Positions 1 to 46,941 of a stretch of 49,525 nucleotides of DNA are shown one piece after another. Source of the stretch: an uncultured Alphaproteobacteria bacterium (GTDB lineage: Bacteria; Pseudomonadota; Alphaproteobacteria; RF32; CAG-239); NCBI GenBank assembly GCA_947588655.1, contig CANPYS010000011.1:1-49525 (forward strand), given 5' to 3'. Under the pieces are notes generated by a model that searched no databases, was not told where the DNA came from, and saw only the letters and a list, made by a program, of their open reading frames with translations. Made by a program: the position numbers and the translations under genes. The stretch's first letter is position 1. The number at the start of each line of letters is the position of its first letter.

Positions 1-6
1 GTCGTT

Positions 7-34
7 AAAAAATGTTCCACCGGAACATTTTTTT
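7..34 (+). terminator. Rho-independent terminator of a gene left of the window
   Basis: An 8-bp stem, AATGTTCC at 11-18 and GGAACATT at 22-29, has a 3-base loop and runs into seven T. The gene it would terminate lies outside the window. The A-run before the stem means it could act in both directions. Confidence 0.6.
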
Positions 35-136
35 GCCTCCAGCCCCATGCAAGCGCTTGACCCAAGCTGAACGACGTTCCGTAATGTATCAAAATAATAA
101 GTTTTCTTTTAACGGTGCAAGAAGTCTTTCTCAAAC

Positions 137-181
137 GTCATCCTGAGCTTTGCCCGAAGGGCATTCGCGAAGGATCCAGGA
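137..181. repeat. Dispersed palindromic repeat (TCATCCTGAGC...GAAGGATCC type)
   Basis: The copy starts GTCATCCTGAGC and ends GCGAAGGATCCAGG, with internal pairing GCCC/GGGC. An inverted near-copy lies at 3031-3074, directly upstream of the first cysteine-rich gene. Relatives starting GTCATGCTGAACTTG occur at 9901-9960, 10127-10187 and 41541-41601. Confidence 0.75.
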
Positions 182-348
182 AATAAAAAAATCCTTGTTC
201 AGAAAGAGACGTTCCCTGCAAAGCATAGCCAAACACCTTTTGTCCCGTTGCGAAAATATCCATACACCGCTCTTATATAAAATGCAAGCAAAATTTTTAT
301 AAATCGTGCAAATTTATTCAAGCGCTTGATGCTATACAAAAAAGTCCA

Positions 349-379
349 AAAATCAAGCGCCGAAAACAAATTCGGCGCC
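349..379 (-). terminator. Terminator of the flavodoxin-fold reductase gene
   Basis: Read on the minus strand, GCGCCGAA and TTCGGCGC form a stem followed by TTGATTTTT. It lies about 11 bases beyond the stop codon of the gene ending at 390. Confidence 0.7.
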
Positions 380-389
380 TGTCATACAT

Positions 390-929
390 TTAGCAATTTT
401 TCCCGAAACGATAAGCGTCTTGCATCGCTTTAGAGCCCTTAATTTCGCCCGCTTGCCATGCACCCACGCCATAGACAATGCCTTTTTCGCGCGCGCCGTC
501 CAAGCAATCTGCCGTAAATCCGCGGAAACCTTCCAGCGCGCGGTTCAGATTTTCGGGGTTATCATCGGCGCAAGTCATAATAAAGTAAAAATCTTTATTT
601 CGCATTTCGGTATATTTCGGCACGGTGCGATCAATCAGGGTTTTCATTTGCCCGTTCATCGCATAAAAATAAATCGGCGTGGCGAGCACAATCACATCTG
701 CGGCAACCATTTTATCCAAAATTTGCGCCATATCATCATTTTGAACGCACCGATGCGCCTCGTTGCAAAAACCGCAACCGCGACAGAAATTGATTTTGTA
801 ATCCGAAAGCCAAATTTTTTCCACATCATGCCCGGCTTCTTGCGCGCCTTTCAAAAATTCGTCACACAAAAGGTCCGAGTTGCCGTGTTTACGAGGGCTT
901 GCGGAAAGAATCAGCACTTTTTTAGTCAT
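390..929 (-). CDS. NAD(P)H-dependent FMN reductase / flavodoxin-fold oxidoreductase
   Basis: A 179-residue flavodoxin-fold protein of the NADPH-dependent FMN reductase family, probably a cytoplasmic electron-transfer or quinone/iron-reducing enzyme. The N-terminus carries the FMN phosphate-binding loop ILSASPRKHGNSD (residues 6-18). It is followed by a cysteine cluster CRGCGFCNEAHRC (about 49-61), as in iron-sulfur flavoproteins and related reductases, and by the ATPIYFYAMNGQMK flavin-contact region (about 84-97). The ATG is preceded by AGGAG at eight bases. It is a single gene with its own terminator, divergent from the gene starting at 1052. The family is clear, but the substrate cannot be read from the sequence. 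Confidence 0.85.
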   Translation of the reverse strand: MTKKVLILSASPRKHGNSDLLCDEFLKGAQEAGHDVEKIWLSDYKINFCRGCGFCNEAHRCVQNDDMAQILDKMVAADVIVLATPIYFYAMNGQMKTLIDRTVPKYTEMRNKDFYFIMTCADDNPENLNRALEGFRGFTADCLDGAREKGIVYGVGAWQAGEIKGSKAMQDAYRFGKNC

Positions 930-1051
930 GATTTATGCTCCTTTTTATAAGTTGTTATATCATATTTTATGCAAAAGGGCAGGCGGTAAGTCAAGCTTTT
1001 TTATTGACTCTCAAGCACAAAATTTATAGGCTTTTAAATAGGAGAAGAACC

Positions 1052-2236
1052 ATGGCGAAATCTTTATATTTAAATAAGGTGCAAATGCAGGCGGAGTTGA
1101 GCCGTTGCTTGGGGTGCAAACTCAAGCCCTGTGCCAAGGCATGCCCGATTGGCGTAAGCCCGGCAGATTTTATTGCTTTGGCAAAAGCCCAAAGAGAACC
1201 TGAGGCGGCACGTCACATTTTAGCGCGCAACCCGTTGGCGGGCATTTGCGGACTGATTTGCCCTGATAAATTTTGCCAAAAGTCTTGCACACGCGGGAAC
1301 ATTGATTTTCCGATTAACATTCCCAAGCTTCAAGCTACGCTGATTTCAAACGCCGCGCCCGATTCGCTTTATGAAAAATTGCCGGCATATAACGGCCGTC
1401 AGATTGCTGTCATCGGGGCAGGGCCTGCCGGCATGGCGGCAACAGCGGCGCTCGTCGGGCAGGGGTGCAAAGTAACGCTTTTTGAGGCGGCAGAACGCAT
1501 TGGCGGGGCGCTCAATTTGATCCCTGAAGAAAGACTTCCCCAAGAGGTTATCCGTCAAGATTGGTCACGGATTGAGGCAAACGGCCGCATCACCTTAAAA
1601 CTCAAAACCAAAGTGGCGGATTTTAAAGCGCTTTTGAAACAAGGCTTTGATAGCGTGATTGTGGCGACCGGCGCGCCTGTGGTAACGCCTTTAGATATTG
1701 CGGGCGAGGCATTAAGCTTGCCGTTTGATGATTATTTGAATGCGCCTGAAAAATATAAGGTTTCAGGGCGAGTCGCGGTTATTGGCGGCGGCAATGTGGC
1801 GGCCGATTGTGCCTTAACCGCCAAGGCTCAAGGTGCTTTAAGCGTTGAAATGTTTGTCCGCCGCCGCATTTCAGATATGCGGATTTCAAAAGCCGAATAT
1901 CTGGATTTGTTGGCGCATCAAGTGGATATTTGTGCCAAAACAAGCCCTGAAAAAATCAGCAAAGATAAAGATGGGCTCACGTTGACTGTCCACCAAAACA
2001 CTTTCAAAGACGGCAAATGGGAAACCGAACCGAACACATCGCTTGAACTGAAACATTATGATTTGATTATCAAGGCGGTAGGAAGTCGTCCGATAGAATA
2101 TGAAGAAAATGCGCGCATCATTTTCTGCGGCGATTGTAAAAATGGCACCACGACTGCGGTGGAAGCGGCAGCGTCGGGGCAAATGGCGGCGATGGTGGCG
2201 TTTCAAAACATCTTTGAAGAAAGAAAAGCAGTCTAG
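1052..2236 (+). CDS. NAD(P)-dependent FAD oxidoreductase, GltD/PreT-like
   Basis: A 394-residue protein resembling the small subunit of glutamate synthase and PreT, the N-terminal half of bacterial dihydropyrimidine dehydrogenase. The first 90 residues carry two cysteine groups, CLGCKLKPCAKACPIG and CGLICPDKFCQKSC, which in this family ligate 4Fe-4S clusters. An FAD-binding motif VIGAGPAGMAA and an NAD(P)-binding motif VIGGGNVAADCA follow, and the protein ends at a typical C-terminal FAD site (IIFCGDCKNGTTTAVEAAASG). I chose ATG 1052 because AGGAGAAG precedes it and the longer reading lacks conserved sequence. No catalytic partner subunit is adjacent, so it may work with a distant large subunit or an unknown acceptor. 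Confidence 0.85.
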   Translation: MAKSLYLNKVQMQAELSRCLGCKLKPCAKACPIGVSPADFIALAKAQREPEAARHILARNPLAGICGLICPDKFCQKSCTRGNIDFPINIPKLQATLISNAAPDSLYEKLPAYNGRQIAVIGAGPAGMAATAALVGQGCKVTLFEAAERIGGALNLIPEERLPQEVIRQDWSRIEANGRITLKLKTKVADFKALLKQGFDSVIVATGAPVVTPLDIAGEALSLPFDDYLNAPEKYKVSGRVAVIGGGNVAADCALTAKAQGALSVEMFVRRRISDMRISKAEYLDLLAHQVDICAKTSPEKISKDKDGLTLTVHQNTFKDGKWETEPNTSLELKHYDLIIKAVGSRPIEYEENARIIFCGDCKNGTTTAVEAAASGQMAAMVAFQNIFEERKAV

Positions 2237-2237
2237 T

Positions 2238-2266
2238 CTAAAAAAACAAAAGTAATTGTTGTTTAG
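2238..2266. repeat. Short hairpin with AAAAGTAATT loop, copy 0
   Basis: The loop AAAAGTAATT is flanked by an imperfect stem ending GTTGTTTAG. The same loop with different but still paired stems opens the repeats at 2375 and 2842. It lies two bases beyond the oxidoreductase stop codon, so it might also act in transcript termination or stability. Confidence 0.6.
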
Positions 2267-2374
2267 AAGTGTCTATCTCATTACCCCCTCACTTATCGTT
2301 ATTTTGAGGCAATTTATTGCTGAAGAATCCAGTGGAAACAAAACTATCCGAATTGTCATGCTGTAGAGCCTATA

Positions 2375-2520
2375 AAAACAACAAAAGTAATTGTTGTTTT
2401 TTAGGCGACATCACGCGATTGTTAGCTTGCTTTGGTGCCGGCAGGCGCCGATGCAAGCGTTACAGAGCGGTGACCGAAGCGAGTTAGCTTTGCGATTAAC
2501 GCAAAAGTTACGAGCAAGAA
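2375..2520 (+). repeat. 146-bp dispersed repeat, copy 1
   Basis: It opens with the hairpin AAAACAAC-AAAAGTAATT-GTTGTTTT. A stretch shared almost exactly with 2918-2991 follows, including GCGTTACAGAGCGGTGACCG and a second hairpin with loop ATTAA between TTTGCG and CGCAAA. I found no coding function. Confidence 0.75.
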
Positions 2521-2559
2521 AGTCTATGAGAATCAATGAGTTATCCTCTAAATATGCAC

Positions 2560-2663
2560 AAAAAAAGGTACCTTTAAATGTGCATTTTGTCAAGGGATTT
2601 TTTTCAAGATTTTTCAAAAGGTTATTTTCTTGATGAAATGCGCATTTAAACGTACGTTTTTTT
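2560..2663 (+). repeat. 104-bp inverted-repeat element, copy 1
   Basis: Two arms of about 35 bp face each other around an AT-rich centre. Each arm, read outward, is TTGA(CA or TG), then 17 bases, then TAC(G or C)TTTTTTT. Near-identical copies of 103-104 bp lie at 9978-10080 and 41627-41730, always upstream of a cysteine-rich gene and in the same orientation to it. The arms fit divergent promoters, but also a bidirectional terminator or a MITE. Confidence 0.8.
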
Positions 2664-2666
2664 GAG

Positions 2667-2787
2667 AAATGTGTATAGCGGCACATCTAAAGCCGTTTCT
2701 TCAAGTTCGGAAAATTCACGTACGTCTATGTACGCTAAAATTTTCCTCGCTTTTGAAACGACTTTATCTGCACCACTCTCCACATTT
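2667..2787. repeat. Long GTAC-core hairpin element A
   Basis: An imperfect palindrome of about 120 bp. The inner stem GGAAAATT/AATTTTCC surrounds the core CACGTACGTCTATGTACGCT. Outer pairing is CGTTTC/GAAACG and AATGTG/CACATT. It directly follows the 104-bp element. The core recurs in elements at 8503, 8639, 10208 and 41908 with different stem sequences. Confidence 0.7.
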
Positions 2788-2841
2788 CTTTGGCTAGAAC
2801 AAAAGAGGGAAAGTCTCTCTAAAACGTCACTCTGAGTAGAG

Positions 2842-2991
2842 TTTTCCAAACACCAAAAGTAATTGGTGTTTGGAAAGCGAGATAACGCGTATGTTAGCTT
2901 GCGAGGCACTGATAAGCGCCGATGCAAGCGTTACAGAGCGGTGACCGAAGCGAGTTAGTTTTGCGATTAACGCAAAACTTACGAGCAAGAA
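2842..2991 (+). repeat. 150-bp dispersed repeat, copy 2
   Basis: It opens with a 12-bp perfect stem, TTTCCAAACACC and GGTGTTTGGAAA, around the loop AAAAGTAATT. The following 75 bases match copy 1 (2375-2520) almost exactly. The second hairpin is GTTTTGCG-ATTAA-CGCAAAAC. An inverted, shortened copy lies at 4155-4221, so the two bracket the gene at 3108-4133. Confidence 0.75.
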
Positions 2992-3030
2992 GGCGAAGAG
3001 TCCAGGTGGAATAAAATTAGCTAATTTTTT

Positions 3031-3074
3031 CCTGGATCCTTCGCGAATGTCCTACGGACAAAGCTCAGGATGAC
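3031..3074. repeat. Dispersed palindromic repeat, inverted copy
   Basis: The reverse complement runs CGTCATCCTGAGC to GCGAAGGATCCAGG, as at 137-181. It joins the conserved leader of the downstream gene with no spacer. Confidence 0.7.
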
Positions 3075-3107
3075 GATTCGGAGGAGTTTGTAATTAAGGA
3101 GCAAAGA
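3071..3107 (+). promoter_or_regulatory. Conserved 5' leader of the cysteine-rich gene family
   Basis: The leader TGACGATTCGGAGGAGTTTG plus TAATTAAGGAGCAAAGA, up to the ATG, is identical to the leader at 9844-9880 of the paralogue on the other strand. A variant lies upstream of 41467. It contains the ribosome binding site AAGGAG, spaced seven bases from ATG. Identity over non-coding sequence points to recent duplication with the flank, or to shared regulation. Confidence 0.6.
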
Positions 3108-4133
3108 ATGAAGTACGTTTTATTTTTAATAGCAATTTTGCTTTCAACACAGGCGTTGGCGATAAACTGTGCACAAGCGCCAAGTTGTGAAGAATTGGGT
3201 TATTCTACTCAAAATAATTCAAACTGTTTAGACGATGGCTATTTAATTTGCCCATTTGATTCGCAATATAAAAAATGCGTCAACTTTAATTGCGAGTCGC
3301 TTGGATTTACAAAATCCGAAAAATCAGATTGGTGTGGTAAACTTGCCTTTTGCCCGAACGATAAATCTTACACAGCTTGTAAAGCTCTTTGTGAAATTGG
3401 CGATGTGTATTATTCGGACGGCACTTGCGGTTATGCGCAAGATTATGACGCATCTTTAGGTAAAACGCCCGCCGGTGTGGTTTACTATGTTTCTGACGGT
3501 GGGCGGCACGGCAAGGTCATTAATTTGAAAAATTTAGGTAAAAATGCGAGTGATAGGTTTAATCCAGCTGATCCTTACAATTCTTCTACACGTTTTGTAT
3601 GGGGAATTGAAAATGATATTTCTAACTTGGAAAACTGGCATTGTGATAGCTTTAAATCTGCTGCACAAACAGAAAACAGAACGACTGATTTTTGGTCAGC
3701 AGGAGAAAATTATACGGACATTATCGCAAGTTATCAAAGCGATGACCTGCAATATCCAGCGCCAGCGGCACGGGCATTTTATCCGCCACAAGTTCAGCCC
3801 GATAATCCAATTGTTGGACATGGTCAATGGTATTTACCTACTATCGGCGAACTTATGGATTTGTTCGGATACAATTATCAAGACTTAGGTATAAACACAA
3901 CGTGCGATAAGATTAAAACAGGAGCAAAAGGAACGACTAAAGAAATTGTCAACAACACTTTAAAAGGCTTAAAGAATAAAAACGTAGATGCTGAAGAGTT
4001 TAGTGAAGATAAATATTTATCTTCATCAGAGTATAATGACGTATACTTTTGGACACTTGACATGAAAGACGGGATGAGAGTCTTTCATAGTAAACACTAT
4101 AGTTTTTACGTCCGAACAAGTCTTGCTTTTTAA
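3108..4133 (+). CDS. Secreted cysteine-rich protein with DUF1566-like C-terminal domain (paralogue 1)
   Basis: 341 residues. Residues 1-18 form a signal peptide ending in ALA. Residues 20-115 hold a cysteine-rich region built from repeated units of the type C..L(G/N)(Y/F)(S/T)...C..DGY..CPFD..YKKC. The C-terminal two thirds runs from AGVVYYVSDGGRHGKVI to the terminal VRTSLAF and includes HGQWYLPTIGELMDL and LSSSEYND. Those motifs resemble DUF1566/Fibrobacter-type major domains, a C-lectin-like fold found in secreted bacterial proteins. The cysteine just after the signal peptide lacks a good lipobox. Function is unknown and a cell-surface role is inferred. The window has three paralogues, at 8791, 40433 and 48740. 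Confidence 0.8.
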   Translation: MKYVLFLIAILLSTQALAINCAQAPSCEELGYSTQNNSNCLDDGYLICPFDSQYKKCVNFNCESLGFTKSEKSDWCGKLAFCPNDKSYTACKALCEIGDVYYSDGTCGYAQDYDASLGKTPAGVVYYVSDGGRHGKVINLKNLGKNASDRFNPADPYNSSTRFVWGIENDISNLENWHCDSFKSAAQTENRTTDFWSAGENYTDIIASYQSDDLQYPAPAARAFYPPQVQPDNPIVGHGQWYLPTIGELMDLFGYNYQDLGINTTCDKIKTGAKGTTKEIVNNTLKGLKNKNVDAEEFSEDKYLSSSEYNDVYFWTLDMKDGMRVFHSKHYSFYVRTSLAF

Positions 4134-4154
4134 TTAAGTGGCTACATTTTTTAA

Positions 4155-4221
4155 TGGACTCTTCGGACTTATTACTTATTTTGGTCACCGCTCTGTAACG
4201 CTTGCGTGATGTTGCTTTCCG
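4155..4221 (-). repeat. Dispersed repeat, inverted and internally deleted copy
   Basis: The reverse complement reads from GGAAAGCAACATCACG through CAAGCGTTACAGAGCGGTG to CGAAGAGTCCA, matching the outer parts of the repeat at 2842-3005 with the middle missing. Together the two form inverted flanks around the cysteine-rich gene at 3108-4133. Confidence 0.65.
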
Positions 4222-4252
4222 GGAGTAGGAGCAGAGGTAAGCGGCGTTTTTT

Positions 4253-4450
4253 TTATAAATCCGAATCGGTTGGTTTTAATTTTTCAAGTTCGGCGTAATC
4301 GGCGTCATCAAGTTCTTCTGCCGGCACATTATAGTCGCCGTTAAACCAGCGCCCTAAGTCCACATCGGCGCAACGCTTGGAGCAAAACGGACGATATTTA
4401 TCGTTTTCCGTCAATTCGCCACATATTGGGCATTTATGCGCTTTAACCAT
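4253..4450 (-). CDS. yacG: DNA gyrase inhibitor / zinc-binding protein YacG
   Basis: 65 residues, the usual length for the family. The zinc-binding motif CPIC (residues 7-10) pairs with FCSKRC (22-27), followed by the characteristic DLGRWFNGDYNVP segment. YacG binds the GyrB C-terminal region and inhibits gyrase in E. coli. The start codon overlaps the end of the RNase G gene by one base, and maf-rng-yacG is a common alphaproteobacterial order, so the gene is probably co-transcribed with it. Confidence 0.92.
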   Translation of the reverse strand: MVKAHKCPICGELTENDKYRPFCSKRCADVDLGRWFNGDYNVPAEELDDADYAELEKLKPTDSDL

Positions 4451-5613
4451 TATTTTTCAACCCTGCCCGTGCCTTGGCAAGTGGGGCATTCCTCGGTATA
4501 AGTATCTAATAACGACGGACGGCGGCGCTGGCGCAACATTTCAATGTTGCCGGCTTTGCTTAAGCCCAAAACCCTTGCTCTGGACGGATCATCTGCCAAA
4601 TCAGCCGATAAAATATCCATCAATGAACGCATGTAGCGATATTCAGACGAACCTGCAAAGTCAATCAAAATTTTGCCCGAAAGATTTTTCAGCCTGATTT
4701 GACGCGCAATCTCGTGCGCGGCTTCTTCATTCAGGCTGTTAATAGCTCCGCCTTGATGACTGCCGCTATCCACATCAATGGTCACAAAAGCGCGTGTCTG
4801 CTCAATGTGAATTTCGCCACCGCTTGCAAGCTTAACGGTGCGTTGCAAAGCCTCCACAATTTCATCTTCCAAGCCAAATTCTTTGAAAGGTTCTGCCTTA
4901 AAAACCGCAATCTCCGTACCGGCGGCATTGTTGATTTCTTGCTCCAAGTGATGATCATTTAAAACAATCTTCTTCAAGCTGTCTTTGGAACGGCGAATAT
5001 ATTCATATAACGGATTTTCACGCACATATAGCAAAGCCGGCGCTGTTGCCTGACGCGCTTTAACCCGAATATTTTCATAAATATCCCTAAGTTTGACCAT
5101 TTCTTCCAAAACATCTTCAATCGGATATTCCACCGCCGCTGTGCGGACTGCCCAGCCCTCTTGTCCCGTGGTATTTTCCCAAACCGCGCTGCGATATTTT
5201 TGCGCCAGCGCCTTGTCTTCAATTTTAGAAGAAACATCCACATTCAAATAAAAAGGACGATACACCAAAGTCGTGCCGACAATTTGAATATTGCGCACCA
5301 CTTTAGCCCCTTTTTCCGCGCGCTTTTCCTGCGTGACTTGAACCACAACACTTTGACCTTCAGACATGTTGCATTCTTTCAACTCAGGTTCCCAAGCGTT
5401 TAAAAATGCGTCTTCGCCGTCACCAATATTGACCTTAAAGCCAAACCTGTCATTTGCAAGCTCAATTTTATGCGTAATTTTACCTAAATAAACATTGCCT
5501 TCGCCAGCGCGGTTATCATCATACAAATCAAGCTCAGCCAACCGACCATCCGTTAAGGCCGCCAAACGCACATTATTGCCGTTTTTTTCAAAGACTAAAG
5601 TATCCGCTTTCAT
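4450..5613 (-). CDS. rng: Ribonuclease G (RNase E/G family)
   Basis: 387 residues, a compact RNase G rather than full RNase E, with no C-terminal degradosome scaffold. The S1-like domain lies near residues 35-110 (YLGKITHKI, GFKVNIGDGEDAFL). The two catalytic aspartate regions are AFVTIDVDSG and GKILIDFAGS, and the C-terminus carries the zinc-link motif CPTCQGTG. It is an endoribonuclease for 16S rRNA 5' maturation and mRNA decay in known members. It overlaps yacG by one base and maf by four, which indicates translational coupling. It is about 100 residues shorter than E. coli RNase G, as in other short alphaproteobacterial forms. Confidence 0.9.
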   Translation of the reverse strand: MKADTLVFEKNGNNVRLAALTDGRLAELDLYDDNRAGEGNVYLGKITHKIELANDRFGFKVNIGDGEDAFLNAWEPELKECNMSEGQSVVVQVTQEKRAEKGAKVVRNIQIVGTTLVYRPFYLNVDVSSKIEDKALAQKYRSAVWENTTGQEGWAVRTAAVEYPIEDVLEEMVKLRDIYENIRVKARQATAPALLYVRENPLYEYIRRSKDSLKKIVLNDHHLEQEINNAAGTEIAVFKAEPFKEFGLEDEIVEALQRTVKLASGGEIHIEQTRAFVTIDVDSGSHQGGAINSLNEEAAHEIARQIRLKNLSGKILIDFAGSSEYRYMRSLMDILSADLADDPSRARVLGLSKAGNIEMLRQRRRPSLLDTYTEECPTCQGTGRVEK

Positions 5614-6182
5614 AATATTCCTGCTCCTATTAATAAATTTCTGGTTTCATACAAAGGCAAGCCCACAACACTTGAATATGAGCCAACCACTTTTTGAACA
5701 AAACCACCCAACAAACCGTCAATTTTGTAGCCGCAAACGCCAACCCATTCTTGGCTTGCCACATAAGCGTTAATTTCTTCATTGCTCAAACGCTTTATAA
5801 AAACCTTGGTTGTTACGCATCGGCTTGAAACGCGCCCGTTTTTATCCACCAAACAAACGGCGCTGATTACTCTGTGATTGCGCCCTGAAAGCATACGCAT
5901 CACTTTTTCTTGCTCTTCGGGCGTTTTAGATTTTTGAATAATTCTTAAACCAACCGCCACAACCGTATCGCCTGCCAAAATATTTTCATGGGGGTGCTTT
6001 TGCGCCGCCGCCAAAGCTTTTTCCAGTGCCATACGCTTGACATAAGGCAAAGGGCGCTCGTGCAAATGCGTTGATTCATCAATATCAGCAGGGGCAACAA
6101 GCTTGGGTTGATAGCCAATTTGCTCTAAAAGACGCAACCTATCCTTTGAACCGGACGCTAATATAAAGTCTTTAGAAGGCAT
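5610..6182 (-). CDS. maf: Maf-family nucleoside triphosphate pyrophosphatase
   Basis: 190 residues. The N-terminal motif FILASGSKDRLRLLEQIG is the Maf signature, followed by ADIDES, LAGDTVV and the C-terminal VGLPLYETRNLL. Maf proteins hydrolyse non-canonical or pyrimidine NTPs. A longer frame upstream exists, but it would run inside dksA in another frame, so I start at ATG 6182, one base after the dksA stop. The gene overlaps rng by four bases. In the usual GDTVV.(D/L) stretch the sequence reads GDTVVAVGLRII, so the region after the catalytic aspartate is slightly unusual. Confidence 0.9.
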   Translation of the reverse strand: MPSKDFILASGSKDRLRLLEQIGYQPKLVAPADIDESTHLHERPLPYVKRMALEKALAAAQKHPHENILAGDTVVAVGLRIIQKSKTPEEQEKVMRMLSGRNHRVISAVCLVDKNGRVSSRCVTTKVFIKRLSNEEINAYVASQEWVGVCGYKIDGLLGGFVQKVVGSYSSVVGLPLYETRNLLIGAGIL

Positions 6183-6183
6183 T

Positions 6184-6609
6184 TTAAGCTTCGTCGTCGT
6201 AGGTTTTTTCCATACGCTCATGGCGTTCCTGCGCTTCAATAGAAAGCGTTGCAATCGGGCGTGCTTCCAAGCGCTCCAGACCAATCGGCTCGCCAGTTTC
6301 TTCGCAATAACCATAAGTGCCGTCTTCAATGCGCTCTAAGGCCTCATTAATCTTTGAAATCAGCTTTCGGGCGCGGTCTTTGGTGCGCAAATCAAGTGAT
6401 TTATCCGTTTCAAGCGACGCACGATCAATTTCATCAGGTTGATTTAAGCCACCTTGTCGCAAATCGTCTAAAGTATCTTCAGATTGCTCCACCAAAGATT
6501 TTTTCCACTCCAAAAGCTTTTGGCGAAAATATTCAAGCTGCATATCGTTCATATACTCTTCCTTGGCGGAAGGCTTGTAATCAGGGGGTAATATAATAGA
6601 ATCAACCAT
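6184..6609 (-). CDS. dksA: RNA polymerase-binding transcription factor DksA
   Basis: 141 residues with the DksA coiled coil (about residues 20-90; SLVEQSEDTLDDLRQGGLNQ includes the coil tip) and a C-terminal zinc-finger region. Only one of the four zinc cysteines remains, in YGYCEETGEPIG followed by ARPIATLSIEAQERHE. That pattern is typical of alphaproteobacterial DksA, which keeps the fold without the full zinc site. It modulates RNA polymerase with ppGpp. It is first in the dksA-maf-rng-yacG operon. ATG 6609 is preceded by AAAAAGGAGAAAATCA. Confidence 0.92.
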   Translation of the reverse strand: MVDSIILPPDYKPSAKEEYMNDMQLEYFRQKLLEWKKSLVEQSEDTLDDLRQGGLNQPDEIDRASLETDKSLDLRTKDRARKLISKINEALERIEDGTYGYCEETGEPIGLERLEARPIATLSIEAQERHERMEKTYDDEA

Positions 6610-6695
6610 TGATTTTCTCCTTTTTCAAATTTTTACCAAACTAGCATTACATACTTCTGTTTTCAAGCTCTTTCTGAATATAAATCACAACTTAA

Positions 6696-7331
6696 CTAAT
6701 TAAAATACCACGTTATGACATTGTTCTCTTCTTTGCAGGCCTTACCGACATCTGAAATTTGAGCTGGCAACAACAGCGCTTTATCGCCTTTGTTTTTCTC
6801 AGAAGTAATTTTTTGGCCAATATCTGAGTTATCAGCATAAGAAAACCGCCAAACCCATAAATCTTTATTAATTTGAAGCGCATTTAAATCTGAACCATCG
6901 TCAAACACCCAAACTTTTGCGCCTAACTCTATGCAGGCATTTTGCGGCACATCAGAAAATGTGATGTGAAACATCTTGGCAACACCATCCGCATCTTTAT
7001 CGGCGGCAACTTCTACCTGACCGCCAAAAGCGTGCGTTCCGTCGCCTTTACAATCGTTCTTCTTATTCGGGACAAGGCCCGCCGGTCCAATGCCCTCTTC
7101 ACATAAAATTTTTAAGCTCACATCAGAATAATCAGGCGCGGCAACAAAGCGTTGCGACACCGCCTTTTTTAAATCTGTTATTTCTTGATTAATACGCCCC
7201 ATACGGTATTTGCCCAACACACTGTTGACTAAACCTGCCGCCGCCATGGTTACCAAAATCATAATCATAATGTACGAAATGGCTTCAAACATCGTGCGTC
7301 CGCTTTGGTTTTGATGTAAAAATCTTTGCAT
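6696..7331 (-). CDS. Type IV pilin-like protein (PilS-type)
   Basis: 211 residues. A short basic leader ends in a prepilin peptidase site, QSG/RTMFEAISY, with the conserved glutamate at mature position 5. A 20-residue hydrophobic helix follows (IMIMILVTMAAAGLVNSVLG), then a globular domain. The C-terminal region has paired cysteines, including DVGKACKEENN close to the end, as in type IVb and PilS-like major pilins. The ribosome site GGAGG lies just upstream of ATG. No other pilus assembly genes are in the window. It might be a pseudopilin, but the domain layout favours a pilin. Confidence 0.75.
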   Translation of the reverse strand: MQRFLHQNQSGRTMFEAISYIMIMILVTMAAAGLVNSVLGKYRMGRINQEITDLKKAVSQRFVAAPDYSDVSLKILCEEGIGPAGLVPNKKNDCKGDGTHAFGGQVEVAADKDADGVAKMFHITFSDVPQNACIELGAKVWVFDDGSDLNALQINKDLWVWRFSYADNSDIGQKITSEKNKGDKALLLPAQISDVGKACKEENNVITWYFN

Positions 7332-7452
7332 TTTACCCTCCGTTTCGTTTGATTATACCACTTTTAAAAAAGAATTTGCAATATTTACTTTATTTTTTCA
7401 GAAATTTATTTATGATAACAACTGAATTTAATTTGAAAGTGAGAGGTTTATA

Positions 7453-8004
7453 ATGAAAAAATTCTTTTTACCTGTGACTTTGAGTGCTTTGTTTCTTTCC
7501 TTAAACGCATACGCCGCCGATACAAACGTCTATACGCCGTATATCGGGCTTGATTATACTTATGCGCATCTTCATGCCGATACCGTTAGCCCCAACAATC
7601 AGGGCGCGGCCTTTAACCTCGGCACACTCTATAATGACTATTTCGGAACAGAACTTTTTGTGGCAAAAACCGCCGATGATCATAAAAATACAGCCTTTGG
7701 CAAGCTCAAAACATCTTATTTTGCCTATGGACTTGATGCCACGGCTTATTTGCCCTTAGGTTGTTTGCATACCTTTGACTTGTTTGCTAGCCTCGGCATC
7801 GGCGAATATGTTTTTGATTATAAATTAAGTGCTCAATCTAAACATGACAACACCGGTTTTGGATATAGATTTGGCGGTGGATTGCTTTATCATTTCAGCG
7901 AGCATTTCAGCCTTCGGGCGGCGGCACGCTATGTGAATGTTGACCATGTGTCTGATGTTCGCCGCATGGTGGAATATAGCACCGGAATCCGTTACCATTT
8001 TTAA
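7453..8004 (+). CDS. Outer-membrane beta-barrel protein
   Basis: 183 residues. A signal peptide (residues 1-21, ending AYA) is followed by alternating amphipathic strands rich in Tyr, Phe and Gly, and the protein ends in GIRYHF, with a C-terminal aromatic residue as the BAM complex prefers. The length suits an eight-stranded barrel of the OmpA/OmpW-like porin class. Start ATG 7453 has GTGAGAGG upstream. It is divergent from the pilin gene and 13 bp before the gene at 8018, so it is probably co-transcribed with it. The exact family and ligand are not recognisable. Confidence 0.75.
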   Translation: MKKFFLPVTLSALFLSLNAYAADTNVYTPYIGLDYTYAHLHADTVSPNNQGAAFNLGTLYNDYFGTELFVAKTADDHKNTAFGKLKTSYFAYGLDATAYLPLGCLHTFDLFASLGIGEYVFDYKLSAQSKHDNTGFGYRFGGGLLYHFSEHFSLRAAARYVNVDHVSDVRRMVEYSTGIRYHF

Positions 8005-8017
8005 AGGAGAATAATTT

Positions 8018-8500
8018 ATGTGGAAAAAATTTGCTCTATGCAGTGTTTTTGTTATTCTGATTTTGGTTGTTTTGTATGGGCTTAAATATTACTTTACGCC
8101 CTCCGATGAACCGCTAGATCAAAACACTCCTGTTGAAAATGTTGTGTTTTCTTATGATGTTTCGTCACTTTCTAAAACCTGTCAATCGCAAAGCGCTATG
8201 ATTTGCGCCGTTGAAAAAGCTGTTAAATGCACGCTGAACCCCGATTTTGATGGTTGCCGGAAAGCAAGACTGCCTAAGTTTATCTTTATGAATGACGAAT
8301 CGCTTGGTCGGCCGACAAAAATGAGCTTTCAAGCCGTAAAAGTTAAGCCCCTCTCGTCCGATTTGGTGGAAATCCACACGCGCAGTACATGTGATGGCAA
8401 TTGGTTTGGCCTTTGCCAAGGTTATGTGATTTATGTGCTGGTACCAACGAAGAAAGAAGGGGAGTGGCGCGTGAAAGACGTATACGCCATGACCGAATAA
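8018..8500 (+). CDS. Hypothetical membrane-anchored protein
   Basis: 160 residues. A single N-terminal membrane segment (about 5-25, FALCSVFVILILVVLYGLKY) leads to a presumably periplasmic domain with five cysteines (C60, C68, C76, C84, then CDGNWFGLCQG near the end) that could form disulfides. I recognise no family. It has AAGGAGAA before its ATG and lies just downstream of the beta-barrel gene, which suggests a shared envelope role. The end of the gene abuts hairpin element B. Confidence 0.65.
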   Translation: MWKKFALCSVFVILILVVLYGLKYYFTPSDEPLDQNTPVENVVFSYDVSSLSKTCQSQSAMICAVEKAVKCTLNPDFDGCRKARLPKFIFMNDESLGRPTKMSFQAVKVKPLSSDLVEIHTRSTCDGNWFGLCQGYVIYVLVPTKKEGEWRVKDVYAMTE

Positions 8501-8502
8501 AA

Positions 8503-8629
8503 GGGAACGCGTATAACCGCTCATCTAGAGGCGTTTTTGCGGGTCTCGCAAAATTCATGTACCTCTTTTGTACACTAGAATTTTGCTCCCCCTTAAAACA
8601 CCTCTATCTAAACGGTTCTCCGCATTCCC
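8503..8629. repeat. Long GTAC-core hairpin element B
   Basis: 127-bp imperfect palindrome. The inner stem GCAAAATT/AATTTTGC surrounds CATGTACCTCTTTTGTACACT. Outer pairing is TCTAGAGGCGTTTT against AAAACACCTCTATCTA, and the ends are GGGAACGCG and CGCATTCCC. Its closest relative is the inverted copy at 10208-10335. The two flank the cysteine-rich gene at 8791-9843. It begins two bases after the upstream stop codon and could act as a transcript-end structure. Confidence 0.75.
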
Positions 8630-8638
8630 TAGAGGTAT

Positions 8639-8760
8639 GGAAAGCCATCTAATGGGCGCCTAGAGCAATTTTGAGCTCAAAAGTGTCCTCATGTACGTCT
8701 ATGTACACTGCGGTACTTTTGAGCTCAAAATCACTCTAATCACCTCATTATCTGCGTTCC
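8639..8760. repeat. Long GTAC-core hairpin element C
   Basis: 122-bp imperfect palindrome. The inner arms TTTTGAGCTCAAAAGT and ACTTTTGAGCTCAAAA surround CATGTACGTCTATGTACACT, with ends GGAAAGCC and GCGTTCC. It is tandem to element B and shares the outer CTAGAGCAATTTT and the AGTGTCCTC segment with element E at 41908. Confidence 0.75.
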
Positions 8761-8790
8761 TATGTTTGTATGCAAGAATAAGGATTTGCT

Positions 8791-9843
8791 TTAAAACGCC
8801 AAGCTCGCACGGACAAAATTAAAATCTTCTCTTTGGGCAGGATGCCTGTCACCGGTTGAAATATGGATTAACCATGAAATTTGTTCTTTTAACTCTGTCG
8901 ATGACCAGTAATAAGCTTCCGTCAACTCTTCAGCTTGCACATTTTTATCTTTCAAAGCCCTTAGCGTGTTGTTGACAAGCGTCTTCGTCTTTCCCGTTGC
9001 GCCTGATATTCCATTATTGGCGGTTATAAGGCTGTTATCATAACCATACAGATCCATCAACTCGCCAAGCGCGGGCAAATACCATTTCCCTTGACCCACA
9101 ATCGAATTTTGCTTATCAACATTTGGTGGATAAAAAGCATGTGCCGCCCGAGCGGCGTGCGGAACACAATATATATAGTAATCATCCGTATCCTTTTGCT
9201 TATCACAATCAGGTGCCTTTGCCGCCAGAATCGTGGCTGTATTTCCTTGACCATCATACAAGTCCGGATCATAGGCTTTCAATTTATCAACAAGTTCCCC
9301 ACCATAATTCGTCAAACCCGGAACATCATAGGCATAATATCCCCAATGAAAAGAGCCCAAAGCTTTAGAATACGGATTTTCAGGATCAAAATCCAAGGTT
9401 TTGCTTATTCTCCCTAAATTATGCAAATTTATTACTTTGCCACCACCAGTACAATCGGTGTAATAAACCACACCAACCGCAACTTTATCTTCGGTGTAAT
9501 CTTTGACATCGCCACACGAACCATCAGCATAAAAGACATCGCCGATGTTACAACGCGGCTTAAGACAGTTGCAAGCCGTATAAGAAGAATCTTGCGGACA
9601 AGTAATAATTTCAGAACACCAACCTGATTTTTCAGATGATGTAAAACCTAATTTTTCACAATCAGGCTGTAAACATTTTTTATAGGAAAAGTCAAACGGA
9701 CATAGGATATAGCCGTCATCGGCACATTGTGGATCATTATCTTTGGAATAATTTAACTCCTCACAGGTTGGTTGCCTTTCACAATTCAGCGCCAACGCCT
9801 GACTTGAAAACAAAATTGCTATTAAAAATAAAACGTACTTCAT
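8791..9843 (-). CDS. Secreted cysteine-rich protein with DUF1566-like C-terminal domain (paralogue 2)
   Basis: 350 residues. Signal peptide 1-18, then repeated cysteine units (CEELNYS, CADDGYILCPFD, YKKC, CEKLGFTSSEKSGWC, CPQDSSYTAC, CNIGDVFYADGSC) to about residue 110, then the VGVVYYT...GKVINL domain with GKWYLPALGELMDLYGYD, YYWSSTEL and terminal VRASLAF. The first 128 or so residues differ from paralogue 3 at only about eight positions, whereas the middle and end diverge strongly. The leader before ATG is identical to that of paralogue 1. GTAC-core hairpins lie at both ends. Export to the cell surface is inferred and function is unknown. Confidence 0.8.
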   Translation of the reverse strand: MKYVLFLIAILFSSQALALNCERQPTCEELNYSKDNDPQCADDGYILCPFDFSYKKCLQPDCEKLGFTSSEKSGWCSEIITCPQDSSYTACNCLKPRCNIGDVFYADGSCGDVKDYTEDKVAVGVVYYTDCTGGGKVINLHNLGRISKTLDFDPENPYSKALGSFHWGYYAYDVPGLTNYGGELVDKLKAYDPDLYDGQGNTATILAAKAPDCDKQKDTDDYYIYCVPHAARAAHAFYPPNVDKQNSIVGQGKWYLPALGELMDLYGYDNSLITANNGISGATGKTKTLVNNTLRALKDKNVQAEELTEAYYWSSTELKEQISWLIHISTGDRHPAQREDFNFVRASLAF

Positions 9844-9880
9844 TCTTTGCTCCTTAATTACAAACTCCTCCGAATCGTCA
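9844..9880 (-). promoter_or_regulatory. Conserved 5' leader of paralogue 2
   Basis: Read on the minus strand it is identical to 3071-3107, including GATTCGGAGGAG and the ribosome site AAGGAG. It joins a TCATCCTGAA palindromic repeat start directly. Confidence 0.6.
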
Positions 9881-9900
9881 TCCTGAAACGACCCCTAATG

Positions 9901-9960
9901 TCATGCTGAACTTGTTTCAGCATCTCTTTTTATGAGATCCCAAAACAAGTTTGGGATGAC
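9901..9960. repeat. Dispersed palindromic repeat (TCATGCTGAACTTG type)
   Basis: TCATGCTGAACTTGTTTCAG and ATCCCAAAACAAGTTTGGGA, ending in TGAC, form a compound palindrome: GAACTTGTTTCAGCATCTC pairs in part with the AACAAGTTTGGGATGAC side. Relatives lie at 10127-10187 and 41541-41601. Confidence 0.65.
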
Positions 9961-9977
9961 CTTTGAGAATCTTTCTC

Positions 9978-10080
9978 AAAAAAACGTACGTTTAAATGTT
10001 CATTTCATCAAGAAAATAACCTTTTGAAAAATCTCAAAAAAATCCCTTGACAAAATGCACATTTAAAGGTACGTTTTTTT
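9978..10080 (-). repeat. 103-bp inverted-repeat element, copy 2
   Basis: The reverse complement of copy 1 (2560-2663) with only a few changes. The arm facing the cysteine-rich gene reads TTGATG-17 bases-TACGTT on the minus strand. The other arm reads TTGACA-17 bases-TACGTT on the plus strand (10047-10075). It lies 135 bp upstream of paralogue 2 in the same relative orientation as copy 1 to paralogue 1. Confidence 0.8.
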
Positions 10081-10126
10081 GCACACATTTTATGGATAAG
10101 TTGTTGATTTCCCTATTTCTTTTTTT

Positions 10127-10187
10127 GTCATGCTGAACTTGTTTCGGAATCTCATCAAAGAGATGCTGAAATAAATTCAGCATGACA
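10127..10187. repeat. Dispersed palindromic repeat (TCATGCTGAACTTG type)
   Basis: TGTCATGCTGAACTTG is matched by AATTCAGCATGACA at the other end, making an imperfect hairpin around CATCAAAGAGATG. Confidence 0.65.
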
Positions 10188-10207
10188 AAGAGAAAATATA
10201 GCTATCT

Positions 10208-10335
10208 GGGAATGCGGAGAACCGTTTAGATAGAGTGAAAAACAAAGCGGTCAAAATTCTAGTGTACATAAATAGTACATGAATTTTGACCGTTCTGCAG
10301 TTTTTCGCTCTAGATGAGCGGTTATACGCACTCCC
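10208..10335. repeat. Long GTAC-core hairpin element D
   Basis: 128-bp imperfect palindrome, inverted relative to element B. Inner stem CAAAATT/AATTTTG, core (minus strand) CATGTACTATTTATGTACACT, outer GGGAATGCGGAGAACCG against CGGTTATACGCACTCCC. Base changes relative to B occur on both sides of the stem (GTCAAAATT/AATTTTGAC here, CGCAAAATT/AATTTTGC in B). Confidence 0.75.
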
Positions 10336-10362
10336 CCTGCCAGCTAGACGTCTTTCCCTTAT

Positions 10363-12555
10363 TTAAGCGGCTTTAACTGATACTTCAGATGAGCCAAGTT
10401 CTTCTAGTACCATCTTCTTTAAGGCCACATTATCCGTTTTTCCCGTTGCCAAAACAGGAATAGATTCTTTGTGCAGAATAACACGCGGTAAAAACAGCTC
10501 CGACATGCCGTTGTTTTTAATATAATCGTGCAAAACGTCCGATTCTACTTTCGGGTTATTGGTCACAAGAACAATCTGCTCCCCTTTGCTTTCATGCGGC
10601 ACGGCCACAACGCCGTAATTAAACTCGGCGCCCATCCATTCATAGGCTTTCATCACCATTTCCTGCACGGCATTTAAGGAAACCATTTCCCCGCCTATTT
10701 TCGCAAAACGCTTAATGCGGTCTTTAATGTAAACAAAGCCGATTTCATCAATTTCCACCACATCACCGGTATGATACCAACCACCTTCCAAAGGCACAAC
10801 CACCCCGGGGTTGTCAGGCATAATGTAGCCGGTCATAATGTTCGGACCTTTCACCACAAGCTCGCCGCCTTTTTCAATGCCGGGGACGGGCTCAAGGCGA
10901 TATTCAATCGCGGGCAAAAGCTTGCCGATAGAACCAAAACGGTTGAAAATGCGGTTATTGGCGGTCACAACAGGCGAGCATTCCGTAGCACCATATGCTT
11001 CCATCATACGCACGCCCATGCGCTCCATCCAAATATTGCGCGTATCGCGTTTCACAGCTTCCGCCCCACCGTACATAAAGCGGACATTATGGAAGTCGTA
11101 CGGGTGAGCAATCTTACCATAGCCCCTGAAGAACGTGTCTGTGCCGAGCATAACGGTTGCCGAAAGCTCATAAACAAGCTCGGCAACAATGCGGTAATGC
11201 AAAGGCGAGGGATATAAAAACACGCGCGAGCCCTCAAAAAGCGGGAAAAGCGTGCCGACCGTGAGCCCGAAACTATGGAACATCGGCATCGCGTTAAACA
11301 TTAAATCTGTTTGATTAAGCGTTTCCAACGATGCCATTTGCTTAATGTTTGCCATAATGTTGGCATGACTTAAAACCACGGCTTTCGGTGCGCCCTCGGA
11401 ACCCGATGTAAACAAAATCACAGCCTCTTTGTTCCCGCCGATTTTATGCGGCACGCGCTTGATTTTATAACGCAAAAACGCATTAATCTTATCCCAAAGG
11501 CAGATTTTTTTAGCCAAAGACTCCAAGTAAAACACTTCCACATTATTGGCTTTTAATACATCAATAACTGATTCAAGCTTGGCGGTTTTGATAAAGGAAA
11601 GCGAAGTAATCACAAGCTTAACCTGCGCCGTTTTGCACATGGAGACAATGTTTTTAGCCCCGACCGAAAAGTTAAGCATAACGGGCACGCGCTCATAAGC
11701 CGAAAGCCCAAAAAATGTGCAGACATTGGCAATGACATTCGGCAACAAAATGCCCACGCGTTCAAAATGAGAGGTTTTTCTTTTAAAAAACTTGCCCAAA
11801 ACAAAAGACTTCACAATCACGTCTTTAAACGAGTTCGGTTTGCGGTTAATATCTTCAATCACGCGCGGACGCTTAAAGAAAAAGCCCTTTTTGGAATAGA
11901 CTTTGGAAGTTTTCATCAACTGCGCAAAAAGCGAGATTTTCGGGTTATAATTAATTTTAAAGTGCATATCGCGCAAAATCTGATAAACTTCATTGCTGAT
12001 GTGGTCGCGTTGGCGGCGGAGTTCGTCTTTAAGCTTAAAGGGACGCGGCGCCCCGACTGTAATTTTAATTTTGGGCAAAGGTCTGTGTGGCAGTTTGCCT
12101 GTTGTGCGCGAAAAATAACCATATTGCGGACCGTCAATCCACACTGGAATAATTGGCGCTTTAGATTTATCAGCCAACAACCCCGGGGCTTCATAAATCT
12201 TCATCAGACCGCCGTTTTCAGTCATACGGCCTTCCGCAAATATCACAACCAAACGGCCGCTATCAACCTTGGCAATCATATTTTTCAAGTCGCTTGGTTC
12301 AATCGGGTTAAATAAAACAACATCTGCATAACGCATCAATGAACGTATCCAATGCCGACGATATAAATGCCCGTTTAAAGCAAAAACAGGATTTCCAGGC
12401 AAAAAGGCATAAAGCATCACAGGATCTAAATAAGATACATGATTGCACACATAAACGCCTTTGTAAGGCAGTTTTTTCAAATCAAAGTCAATTTGACAGC
12501 GAACTTTAAAAATATAGAAAAACGTACGTAGAAAAAGCTTAAATAGATTATTCAA
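10363..12555 (-). CDS. aas: Bifunctional lysophospholipid acyltransferase / acyl-ACP synthetase (Aas-like)
   Basis: 730 residues in two domains. Residues 1-220 are a PlsC-type acyltransferase with NHVSYLD (HX4D) and FAEGRMT motifs. Residues 270-720 are an AMP-forming adenylate ligase with LFTSGSEGAPKAVVLSH, AYGATECSPV and the YHTGDVVEIDE motif. This matches Aas, which activates fatty acids and re-acylates 2-acyl-lysophospholipid at the inner membrane. The MFS transporter domain of some LplT-Aas fusions is absent. It is divergent from a fadL-like gene, which suggests that imported fatty acids are built into phospholipid. A pure acyl-ACP synthetase role is possible. Confidence 0.85.
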   Translation of the reverse strand: MNNLFKLFLRTFFYIFKVRCQIDFDLKKLPYKGVYVCNHVSYLDPVMLYAFLPGNPVFALNGHLYRRHWIRSLMRYADVVLFNPIEPSDLKNMIAKVDSGRLVVIFAEGRMTENGGLMKIYEAPGLLADKSKAPIIPVWIDGPQYGYFSRTTGKLPHRPLPKIKITVGAPRPFKLKDELRRQRDHISNEVYQILRDMHFKINYNPKISLFAQLMKTSKVYSKKGFFFKRPRVIEDINRKPNSFKDVIVKSFVLGKFFKRKTSHFERVGILLPNVIANVCTFFGLSAYERVPVMLNFSVGAKNIVSMCKTAQVKLVITSLSFIKTAKLESVIDVLKANNVEVFYLESLAKKICLWDKINAFLRYKIKRVPHKIGGNKEAVILFTSGSEGAPKAVVLSHANIMANIKQMASLETLNQTDLMFNAMPMFHSFGLTVGTLFPLFEGSRVFLYPSPLHYRIVAELVYELSATVMLGTDTFFRGYGKIAHPYDFHNVRFMYGGAEAVKRDTRNIWMERMGVRMMEAYGATECSPVVTANNRIFNRFGSIGKLLPAIEYRLEPVPGIEKGGELVVKGPNIMTGYIMPDNPGVVVPLEGGWYHTGDVVEIDEIGFVYIKDRIKRFAKIGGEMVSLNAVQEMVMKAYEWMGAEFNYGVVAVPHESKGEQIVLVTNNPKVESDVLHDYIKNNGMSELFLPRVILHKESIPVLATGKTDNVALKKMVLEELGSSEVSVKAA

Positions 12556-40432: not shown

Positions 40433-41467
40433 TTAAAATTCAAGACTTGCGCGAGAAAATTTATCATAAGTTTTGGGATCGGGAACCCGATCACCATCAG
40501 TTATGTTAATTCTCCAAGCTTTCTCCGAATTATATTCTGTTGATGACCAATACATACTCTTTAACTCTTCTGCAGCAACATTTCTTTCCTTTAAAGCTTT
40601 TAACGTGCTGTTGACGATTGTTATGATTTCGCCGGTCGCGCCTGATTTACCCCAAAGACTTGTTATTTTGCTACGATCACAACCATACAAATCCATAAGC
40701 TCCCCGATTGCTGGTAAGTACCATTTTCCTTGTCCTACAATAGAATTATTTGGGAGAATTTCAGGTGGGTAAAAGTCATGTGCTGCCTGTGCCACTTGCG
40801 GAACACAAGAGTAATAATATGTGTATATATTTGGCTCAAAGTTACAGGTTGGTTGTTCTGCATTTAAAATCTTATCCGTATTTCCCTTGCCATCAAATAA
40901 ACCTAAATCGTTTGCAACAATATTTGAATTATAATTTGCAAGTTTGGGAATATCATATTGACTATATCCCCAAACAAGATTGCTTGTTCCATGATACGGA
41001 TTTTCCGGATTAAAAGAGTAGTCACCGCCTATTCTCTTAAAGTCTTTCAAGTTAATCACCTTGCCACCACCAGCACAATTTGTATAATAAACGACACCAA
41101 CCGGAATTTTATCTGAGGTATAATCTTTAACATCGCCACACGAGCCGTCCGCATAAAACACATCACCAATATTGCAACGCGGCTTAAGACAGTTGCAAGC
41201 CGTATAAGAAGAATCTTGCGGACAAGTAATAATTTCTGAACACCAACCCGATTTTTCAGATGATGTAAATCCTAATTTTTCACAATCAGGCTGTGCGCAT
41301 TTTTTGTACGAGAAGTCAAACGGACAGAGAATATAACCATCCTCAGCGCATTGTGGATCATCATCTTTGGAGTAATTTAACTCCTCGCAGGTCGGTTGCT
41401 TTTCACAATTCAGCGCCACCGCCTGACTTGAAAATAAAATTGCTATCAAAAATAAAACATACTTCAT
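40433..41467 (-). CDS. Secreted cysteine-rich protein with DUF1566-like C-terminal domain (paralogue 3)
   Basis: 344 residues. The signal peptide and cysteine-rich region (residues 1-128) are almost the same as in paralogue 2, with about eight differences. After GGGKVINL the sequence diverges, although the framework is kept: GKWYLPAIGELMDLYGCD, MYWSSTEYN and terminal SRASLEF. The pattern of a constant front and a variable rear suggests gene conversion or selection on the surface domain. The leader before ATG is a degenerate form of that in paralogues 1 and 2 (GATTCGGGGGACTTT), partly duplicated. Function is unknown. Confidence 0.8.
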   Translation of the reverse strand: MKYVLFLIAILFSSQAVALNCEKQPTCEELNYSKDDDPQCAEDGYILCPFDFSYKKCAQPDCEKLGFTSSEKSGWCSEIITCPQDSSYTACNCLKPRCNIGDVFYADGSCGDVKDYTSDKIPVGVVYYTNCAGGGKVINLKDFKRIGGDYSFNPENPYHGTSNLVWGYSQYDIPKLANYNSNIVANDLGLFDGKGNTDKILNAEQPTCNFEPNIYTYYYSCVPQVAQAAHDFYPPEILPNNSIVGQGKWYLPAIGELMDLYGCDRSKITSLWGKSGATGEIITIVNSTLKALKERNVAAEELKSMYWSSTEYNSEKAWRINITDGDRVPDPKTYDKFSRASLEF

Positions 41468-42032: not shown

Positions 42033-42056
42033 AAAAGGCGCCCATTAGACGCGTTC

Positions 42057-42503: not shown

Positions 42504-42639
42504 TTTGGTTCTCCGAAGTTAAAATATAATACATGATAATTTATGCTCATAAAATTTATTGTCAATACTAGACAATTAAGAATAATTGATATATAGTACA
42601 CAAAGTTTTAAAATTTTGATAATTTTTGAGGACCAAAAA

Positions 42640-44028: not shown

Positions 44029-44038
44029 GAGAAAAATC

Positions 44039-44563: not shown

Positions 44564-44612
44564 AGCTTGATTTTTGGGAAAAAATTATCTAAATAAACCT
44601 TGAAGGAAAGTT

Positions 44613-46312: not shown

Positions 46313-46428
46313 AAAAATGGTTATTATCAGGGCATAAAACGCATAGATTTTGAGTATTGCGTATTTTCCTTTTTGTTTTTTTAATTGTAATCCAAGCTTT
46401 AATAGCTTTAAAACATGGTTGTGTAAGT

Positions 46429-46935: not shown

Positions 46936-46941
46936 AAAAGA

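Follow-up and report, generated by a model that had tools for sequence, protein, structure and literature searches.

Our analysis indicates that the two cysteine-rich genes examined here belong to a large gene family in which, quite probably, recombination among shared 5′ modules replaces the front ends (heads) of the genes, the back ends (tails) stay distinct and the genes relocate, and that the repeats bracketing some members are probably not the ends of cassettes. The genes lie in the window, a stretch of 49,525 nucleotides from an uncultured gut alphaproteobacterium. In the mechanism that we propose, every gene begins with a shared 5′ module, in which a palindrome (Q) and short repeats usually precede the start region and approximately the first 100 codons. 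The modules recombine by homology, mostly through gene conversion, and this has replaced the heads, with the result that they track the species and not the locus; the tails have remained distinct and orthologous. The general recombination machinery would supply the enzyme. Crossing-over between the scattered, often inverted copies and their surrounding repeats is the likely route to the relocation and rearrangement that we observed.

The gene family and the genomes compared

Paralogue 1 (positions 3108-4133, plus strand, an ORF of 341 amino acids) and paralogue 2 (8791-9843, minus strand and opposite to paralogue 1, 350 amino acids) are 49% identical. Both begin with a signal-like stretch, continue with a Cys-rich domain and end in a C-terminal part that resembles Lcl_C (DUF1566). 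A third member of the family (40433-41467, minus strand) and a fourth (48740-49525, minus strand, truncated by the contig end) are also present in the window. The resemblance to Lcl_C is drawn from several partial matches. The Pfam scores of paralogue 1 (31.3 bits) and paralogue 2 (22.4 bits) fall below the gathering cut-off of 34.9 bits. A profile built from 19 members matched the C-terminal domain of Legionella Lcl (PDB 8q4e) with E=1.6e-4 over 43 positions. An AlphaFold model of paralogue 1 (pLDDT 85.4, pTM 0.73) had its best fold match in a Bacteroides ovatus fimbrial protein, 4eps (E 7.4e-6, query TM 0.38, rmsd 10.3); it also matched 8q4e (E 1.3e-3, target TM 0.60, rmsd 8.6). Since the rmsd is high in both cases, these fold matches are considered partial. 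The family is thus like Legionella Lcl in its C-domain, by profile and by fold, and unlike it in that the family alignment showed no collagen-like repeat, a Cys-rich head is found instead, and a large family exists where Legionella has one gene. The Lcl C-terminal domain is an adhesin domain reported to bind host glycosaminoglycans (PMC11162425), and from sequence and model we predict that the family proteins are probably adhesins or ligand binders.

Family matches were found in 79 stretches of the window’s genome (G000; not all are separate genes) and in 76 stretches of G001, a sister species of the same genus. Among 19 other relatives searched, seven had 4-12 matches and 12 had none. Both genes belong to this family, which we place at genus level: its members encode exported Cys-rich proteins with lectin-like tails and are dispersed over the chromosome. 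A literature search of limited reach brought nothing on this Cys-rich/Lcl_C family to our notice.

Both assemblies are drafts. The stretches sampled from G000 (1,552,048 bases) total 367 kb, or 24% of the genome, and were chosen around family genes; ortholog calls cover 24% of G000 and approximately 54% of G001, and a reciprocal best match may therefore miss the true orthologue. Neighboring genes are named here from their translations as what we take to be gltD-like, RNase G, maf, DksA and ligase genes, and a domain (Pfam) search of the window supplied the labels FMN_red, OMP_b-brl and PilS. An Rfam scan of the window found no family at gathering scores.

Heads follow species and tails follow orthology

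It had been predicted originally that the cysteine-rich genes might recombine with each other, and the comparison of the two species bears this out for the family. A total of 72 ORFs were gathered, and three distant relatives with other heads were dropped before the counts, leaving 69 complete genes (35 from G000 and 34 from G001); this set excludes the G001 gene next to gltD, because its contig stops short of the stop codon. When the first 95 residues were compared, the nearest neighbor belonged to the same species in 69/69 genes, versus 29/69 for the C-domain (residue 122 onward). We then considered the 21 reciprocal-best pairs and used the 15 with a C-domain identity of at least 0.55. Between these orthologues the C-domain had a median identity of 0.82 and the N-domain one of 0.54, the latter against 0.66 between the N-domain and its own-species paralogues. 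In all 15 pairs the orthologous N-domain was less alike than the median own-species paralogue.

The same switch is present in the DNA. Between orthologues, identity is 0.59-0.65 in codons 1-100 and rises to 0.75-0.9 past codon 120; within G000, it is 0.84 at codons 1-20 and falls to 0.38-0.45 past codon 140. Agreement at fourfold sites between orthologues likewise changes from 0.28-0.49 in codons 1-80 to 0.67-0.88 past codon 120. Because the silent sites switch, the heads of orthologous genes are not orthologous themselves, which points to replacement by recombination. Several paralogue pairs also have heads that are 0.89-0.99 alike in DNA and tails that are 0.43-0.69 alike. Some events are recent: the heads of C22:801 and C22:8046 are 98.6% alike in DNA and their tails 54%, and the head of paralogue 2 is 94% like that of C1:32934, with tails at 52%. 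Further, the two loci with both flanks conserved, C1:39768 and C1:69134, still carry species-specific heads, which indicates that heads were replaced in place.

A likeness of heads within a species could in principle come from selection, with no recombination involved, if each species had its own partner for export or anchoring. The N-domain, with its signal-like stretch and Cys-rich domain, may indeed contact a common partner, and fourfold-site agreement within G000, at 0.78 in codons 1-20, is a modest 0.44-0.50 in codons 21-100 (0.28-0.38 in the tails). However, selection on the protein alone would not scramble the silent sites of the head and leave those of the tail, nor does it sit well with the paralogue pairs described above, and we consider this explanation improbable. 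The modest agreement past codon 20 suggests that most of the conversion is old or that selection helps; conversion may be anchored at the extreme 5′ end of the gene, or may mostly be old. As in concerted evolution, then, one segment of these genes resembles its paralogues in the same genome more than its orthologue, and the other is orthologous; at the fourfold sites of G000 the signal is distinct for codons 1-20 only. Diversification of the tails by a diversity-generating retroelement (DGR) was considered separately and rejected: contig C3 does carry an RT with a TR/VR pair, but no match to the TR was found in any of the 69 family genes at E≤0.01.

A shared 5′ module

Palindrome Q lies upstream of both paralogues, at 2550-2666 on the plus strand and at 9975-10090 on the minus strand. 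In the sampled 367 kb, 36 of 37 copies of Q were within 1.5 kb of a family-gene cluster, a zone that takes up 39% of those bases. Copies upstream of a gene share its orientation in 32 of 35 cases, at a median distance of 237 bases. Other elements of the sampled stretches were also found near family genes, namely the short repeats E (50/51) and D (11/14), the hairpins K (21/25) and H2 (6/9), and repeat A (26/36). A scan for sigma-70 sites found no promoter-like site in 2240-3110 and four in 8480-10370, the number expected by chance (4.2 in shuffles); the latter region has six terminator-like sites versus 1.5 in shuffles.

When the two paralogue regions are compared in inverted orientation, they match best in their own 5′ module (2531-2669 with 9972-10109, 90%; 3065-3445 with 9497-9886, 72%), a feature that the original prediction had missed.

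We can speculate that Q and the head form a dedicated recombination handle, with a factor acting on Q, or on the structured-RNA-like repeat A, that directs exchange among dozens of heads. We regard this as rather unlikely. If true, it would amount to a chromosome-wide lectin-shuffling system in which tails are swapped between sites and possibly between expression contexts.

Family genes change place between species

The suggestion that these genes move was upheld, in that C-domain orthologues change place between the two species. Using 5-kb flanks, both flanks could be evaluated for 12 of the 15 orthologue pairs. Eight of these shared neither flank, two shared one and two shared both. As controls, 179 ordinary ORFs were taken, 98 of which mapped in sampled G001 and 59 of which had both flanks evaluable; only two of the 59 shared neither flank (Fisher p=1.9e-6 against 8/12 for the family). 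A hand count limited to pairs with a C-domain identity of at least 0.70 gave 6/10 (p=4.4e-5). These figures come from samples of 24% and 54% of draft genomes, and some pairs may not be true orthologues.

Individual cases illustrate the point. The orthologue of paralogue 1, C1:54849 of G001, adjoins the counterpart of window 42046-48073 and has no flank in common with it. The G001 paralogue that adjoins gltD shares 83.6% DNA identity with C22:801 of G000, which is situated elsewhere. A segment of G000 (C12:34400-36570) holds a family gene (C12:34717) and repeats, and G001 has only one hairpin between the same two neighboring genes.

Repeats around the genes are dispersed elements

Paralogue 1 was originally described as lying between inverted ends, since the sequence at 2842-2991, with a second copy at 2375-2520, appeared to recur inverted and internally deleted at 4155-4221. 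The first two are indeed one repeat (families D1 and D2), referred to here as repeat A (2848-2990, upstream of paralogue 1, and 2376-2519, both on the plus strand), and are 86% alike over 144 nucleotides. An inverted match also exists downstream of the gene, but it is a relic of 26 nucleotides (4180-4205, minus strand) and neither a full arm nor a shortened full copy. Its 23-nucleotide core is exact, and as none was expected in 100 shuffles, the match is not due to chance. Paralogue 2 was likewise said to lie between inverted hairpins at 8503-8629 and 10208-10335. These are inverted relatives (I5, I9 and I12), but they belong to a dispersed family, K, and are not specific to the locus. One copy of K (8504-8626, plus strand) is downstream of the gene at 8018-8500, and the other (10211-10334, minus strand) is downstream of the ligase-like gene at 10363-12555. 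They are 77% alike over the whole element, or 0.71 and 0.74 by two other alignments, and the copy at 8504 has relatives elsewhere that are 89-91% alike, versus 71-77% for the window’s other copy. A further K (2666-2786, plus strand) abuts Q and is 98-99% identical to its closest copies on other contigs, and for a K-related hairpin, H2 (8648-8744, plus strand), the sister species has a counterpart, 85% alike, that also adjoins the 8018-8500 gene.

Both repeats are abundant. K has 22 matches in the genome, and the 57 matches to repeat A include at least 44 copies that span 121 nucleotides or more, a lower bound obtained by scoring 40 of 113 candidates; some copies of A form head-to-tail arrays near contig ends. 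Brackets are rare. Hairpins lie within 700 bases on both sides of 3/33 family-gene clusters and face inward in 2/33, and repeat A lies within 1 kb on both sides of 2/33, in the same orientation both times.

The original prediction was that such brackets could be the ends of mobile or invertible cassettes. A transposase or a site-specific recombinase would then be expected to act on them. In its favor, paralogue 2 and C12:34717 each lie between inward-facing hairpins, and the C12 segment is absent from the sister species, where one hairpin remains. Against it, the repeats are high-copy and dispersed, the arms are too unlike (71-77% for the hairpins, 26 nucleotides for A) to be the near-identical inverted ends of a composite transposon or MITE-bounded cassette, and most family clusters have no brackets; the genes identified between the brackets are those of the family. 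The comparison with the sister species found no case of 2842-4221 or 8503-10335 inverting as a unit. No Y1 transposase was found in G000; REP/RAYT (Y1) transposition was rejected on this count, with zero matches to PF01797 in G000 and matches in 5 of 14 control genomes. When the absent site on C12 was read by eye for a target-site duplication, no clean one could be made out, since the sister site carries its own hairpin. We give the cassette explanation little chance. The A and K brackets are instances of structured, dispersed repeats that have come to occupy the same intergenic sites, where they contribute further homology; we do not regard them as dedicated ends of cassettes.

Inversion of a 4.2-kb block

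A 4.2-kb block (4280-8500), from the RNase G-like gene to the gene at 8018-8500, is inverted between the species, and its breakpoints are located where paralogues 1 and 2 lie, one at each end and inverted relative to each other. On contig C9 of G001, the counterpart of window 16705-10125 is linked, by way of a large ORF and three copies of repeat A, to that of 4280-8500. The ligase-like gene is faced by the 4280 end of the block in G001 and by the 8500 end in the window. The gltD-like gene of G001 is on a short contig, C96. A family gene comes next on that contig, and its final 77 bases are identical to the end of C9. In an outgroup genus (G005 and G019), the gltD-like and 8018-8500 genes are convergent neighbors with approximately 90 bases between aligned ends and no family-gene match between them. 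The outgroup agrees with the sister species at this one end, suggesting that the inversion most simply took place in the window’s lineage and that the window is the derived state.

The inversion may have been mediated by the paralogues’ modules or by the hairpins. As an alternative to the modules, K or H2 hairpins or repeats A could have mediated the inversion, with the paralogues settling at the scars afterwards. The ends of the block in G001 carry K at the ligase gene, three copies of A, and H2 next to the 8018-8500 gene; no family gene lies in the junction from the RNase G-like gene to the ligase gene. In addition, window 8499-8629 is 91% like the hairpin at the ligase gene of G001, which is itself only 75% like the window’s own ligase hairpin. 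However, within window 1-12000 the two paralogues form the longest inverted pair (I1, 325 nucleotides, 73%), and their upstream modules form the most similar of the long pairs (I3, 71 nucleotides, 94%). We regard mediation by the hairpins or A repeats as possible, if somewhat doubtful.

Errors of assembly at repeats could also mimic both the inversion and the relocations, as both genomes are drafts and 19 of the 41 long copies of repeat A evaluated are within 600 bases of a contig end. One G001 junction depends on the 77-nucleotide end overlap of C96 and C9, and no third place in G001 has that end. Nevertheless, the adjacency of the ligase and RNase G-like genes in G001 and the adjacencies of the window are inside contigs, the head pattern recurs across 69 separate genes, and 57 of the 59 ordinary genes keep at least one flank in the same assemblies. 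Such errors are thus an unlikely source of the inversion and the relocations.

Rearrangement elsewhere in the genome

Paralogue loci may be hot spots of rearrangement, but this is suggestive only; the pair of genomes is much rearranged in any case. Synteny was broken at 9 of 13 decidable family clusters (33 in total) versus 5 of 14 decidable family-free gene pairs (24 in total), with a one-sided p=0.087. Breaks were classified by hand; the one inversion described above enters the tally twice, through paralogues 1 and 2, and cluster C36:3049 was judged on one side only. At the five broken controls the G000 interval holds no family gene or repeat, and in two cases a family gene adjoins the break in G001. 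This tally replaced an automatic one (family, seven broken and one syntenic of 29; controls, one and 10 of 47), in which several breaks rested on short repeat-like hits and 47% of G001 was covered. A family gene or repeat was found within 1.5 kb, in either genome, of 22 of 31 synteny-block edges. On the G001 side, 10/31 edges are near a family gene versus 9.6% of random places, and on the G000 side 15/31 versus 31%; the edge figures are given little weight because the stretches were chosen around family genes.

Comparison with other recombining gene families

Families of surface genes that recombine, such as vsp/vsa of mycoplasmas and opa of Neisseria, have many paralogues with conserved and variable parts that are rearranged by recombination. 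Compared with these, most copies in the present family carry their own 5′ module, and neither a single expression site nor, in the search for Y1 transposases, a recombinase gene was identified. In the outer-membrane protein gene pairs homA/homB and babA/babB of Helicobacter pylori, one segment is reported to evolve in concert by gene conversion and the other to keep its orthology (PMC2795765). The family resembles that system in having paralogous genes for surface proteins (a role that is predicted here) with one concerted and one orthologous segment. It differs in that hom and bab are gene pairs with a homogenized 3′ segment, whereas here there are approximately 35 sampled copies per genome, the species-specific parts are 5′, and the genes relocate.

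An uncultured gut alphaproteobacterium has a family of surface-protein-like genes with species-bound front ends and lectin-like tails that keep their identity as they relocate, and domain-level concerted evolution and gene relocation can be measured at dozens of loci together. The family is also a candidate cause to be sought behind the frequent rearrangements in the genus. Should the tails bind glycans of the host or the diet, as we predict, this would also be a route to diversify gut colonization.

Structure of repeat A

Repeat A may be an RNA read in the plus direction, and the one-sided changes lean that way: on the plus strand, by hand count, G-U predominates (39 cells) and A-C is infrequent (8 cells), a bias that is partly built in because the structure was predicted on that strand. 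Pairing itself is well conserved, with 98.6% of cells paired in 42 copies from the two species. Covariation was also clear, as 73 cells were changed on both sides versus 22.9 in shuffles (0/500 as high), and sliding the partners as a control left 2-13 two-sided changes.

Repeat A and the breakpoint in the sister species

Strong compensatory change was found in three hairpins of repeat A, a dispersed structured repeat (window 2848-2990 and its copies), and in some copies one of the three is replaced with dissimilar hairpins. Repeat A is a candidate for a novel structured RNA or a novel hairpin element. Head-to-tail copies lie close to contig ends in G000, the genome of the window (C45:189-724, C31:1-275, C23:4-222 and C33:2-221), and the assembly may break at them. 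In the sister species G001, three copies flank an 889-aa ORF (L124 6913-9582), presumably autotransporter-like. This ORF lies at the breakpoint of the block (window 4280-8500) that is inverted between the two species; the corresponding place in the window holds genes of the Cys-rich family.

Junctions and ends of family genes

At many family genes, the dispersed hairpin K adjoins the upstream palindrome Q at the same model end (window 2666, C10:11178, C12:36228, C14:26618 and C16:31861, among others). This recurring junction looks as if K had inserted at one site or the composite had been copied. One pair of orthologous family genes is 84% identical overall but 98% identical over the closing 109 nt (L137:2990-3098 and G000 C22:1768-1876), perhaps through recent conversion or transfer.

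Diversity-generating retroelement

G000 also carries a diversity-generating retroelement (L159, C3:55968-59573; features at 2-892, 769-873, 1043-1147 and 1273-2424), comprising an RT, a 105-nt template repeat and a variable repeat. The variable repeat forms the terminal part of a presumably tail-fibre-like ORF, for which NCBIfam gave no matches. The retroelement's setting is perhaps a prophage. All eight mismatches between the two repeats, over 105 nt, fall at template A.
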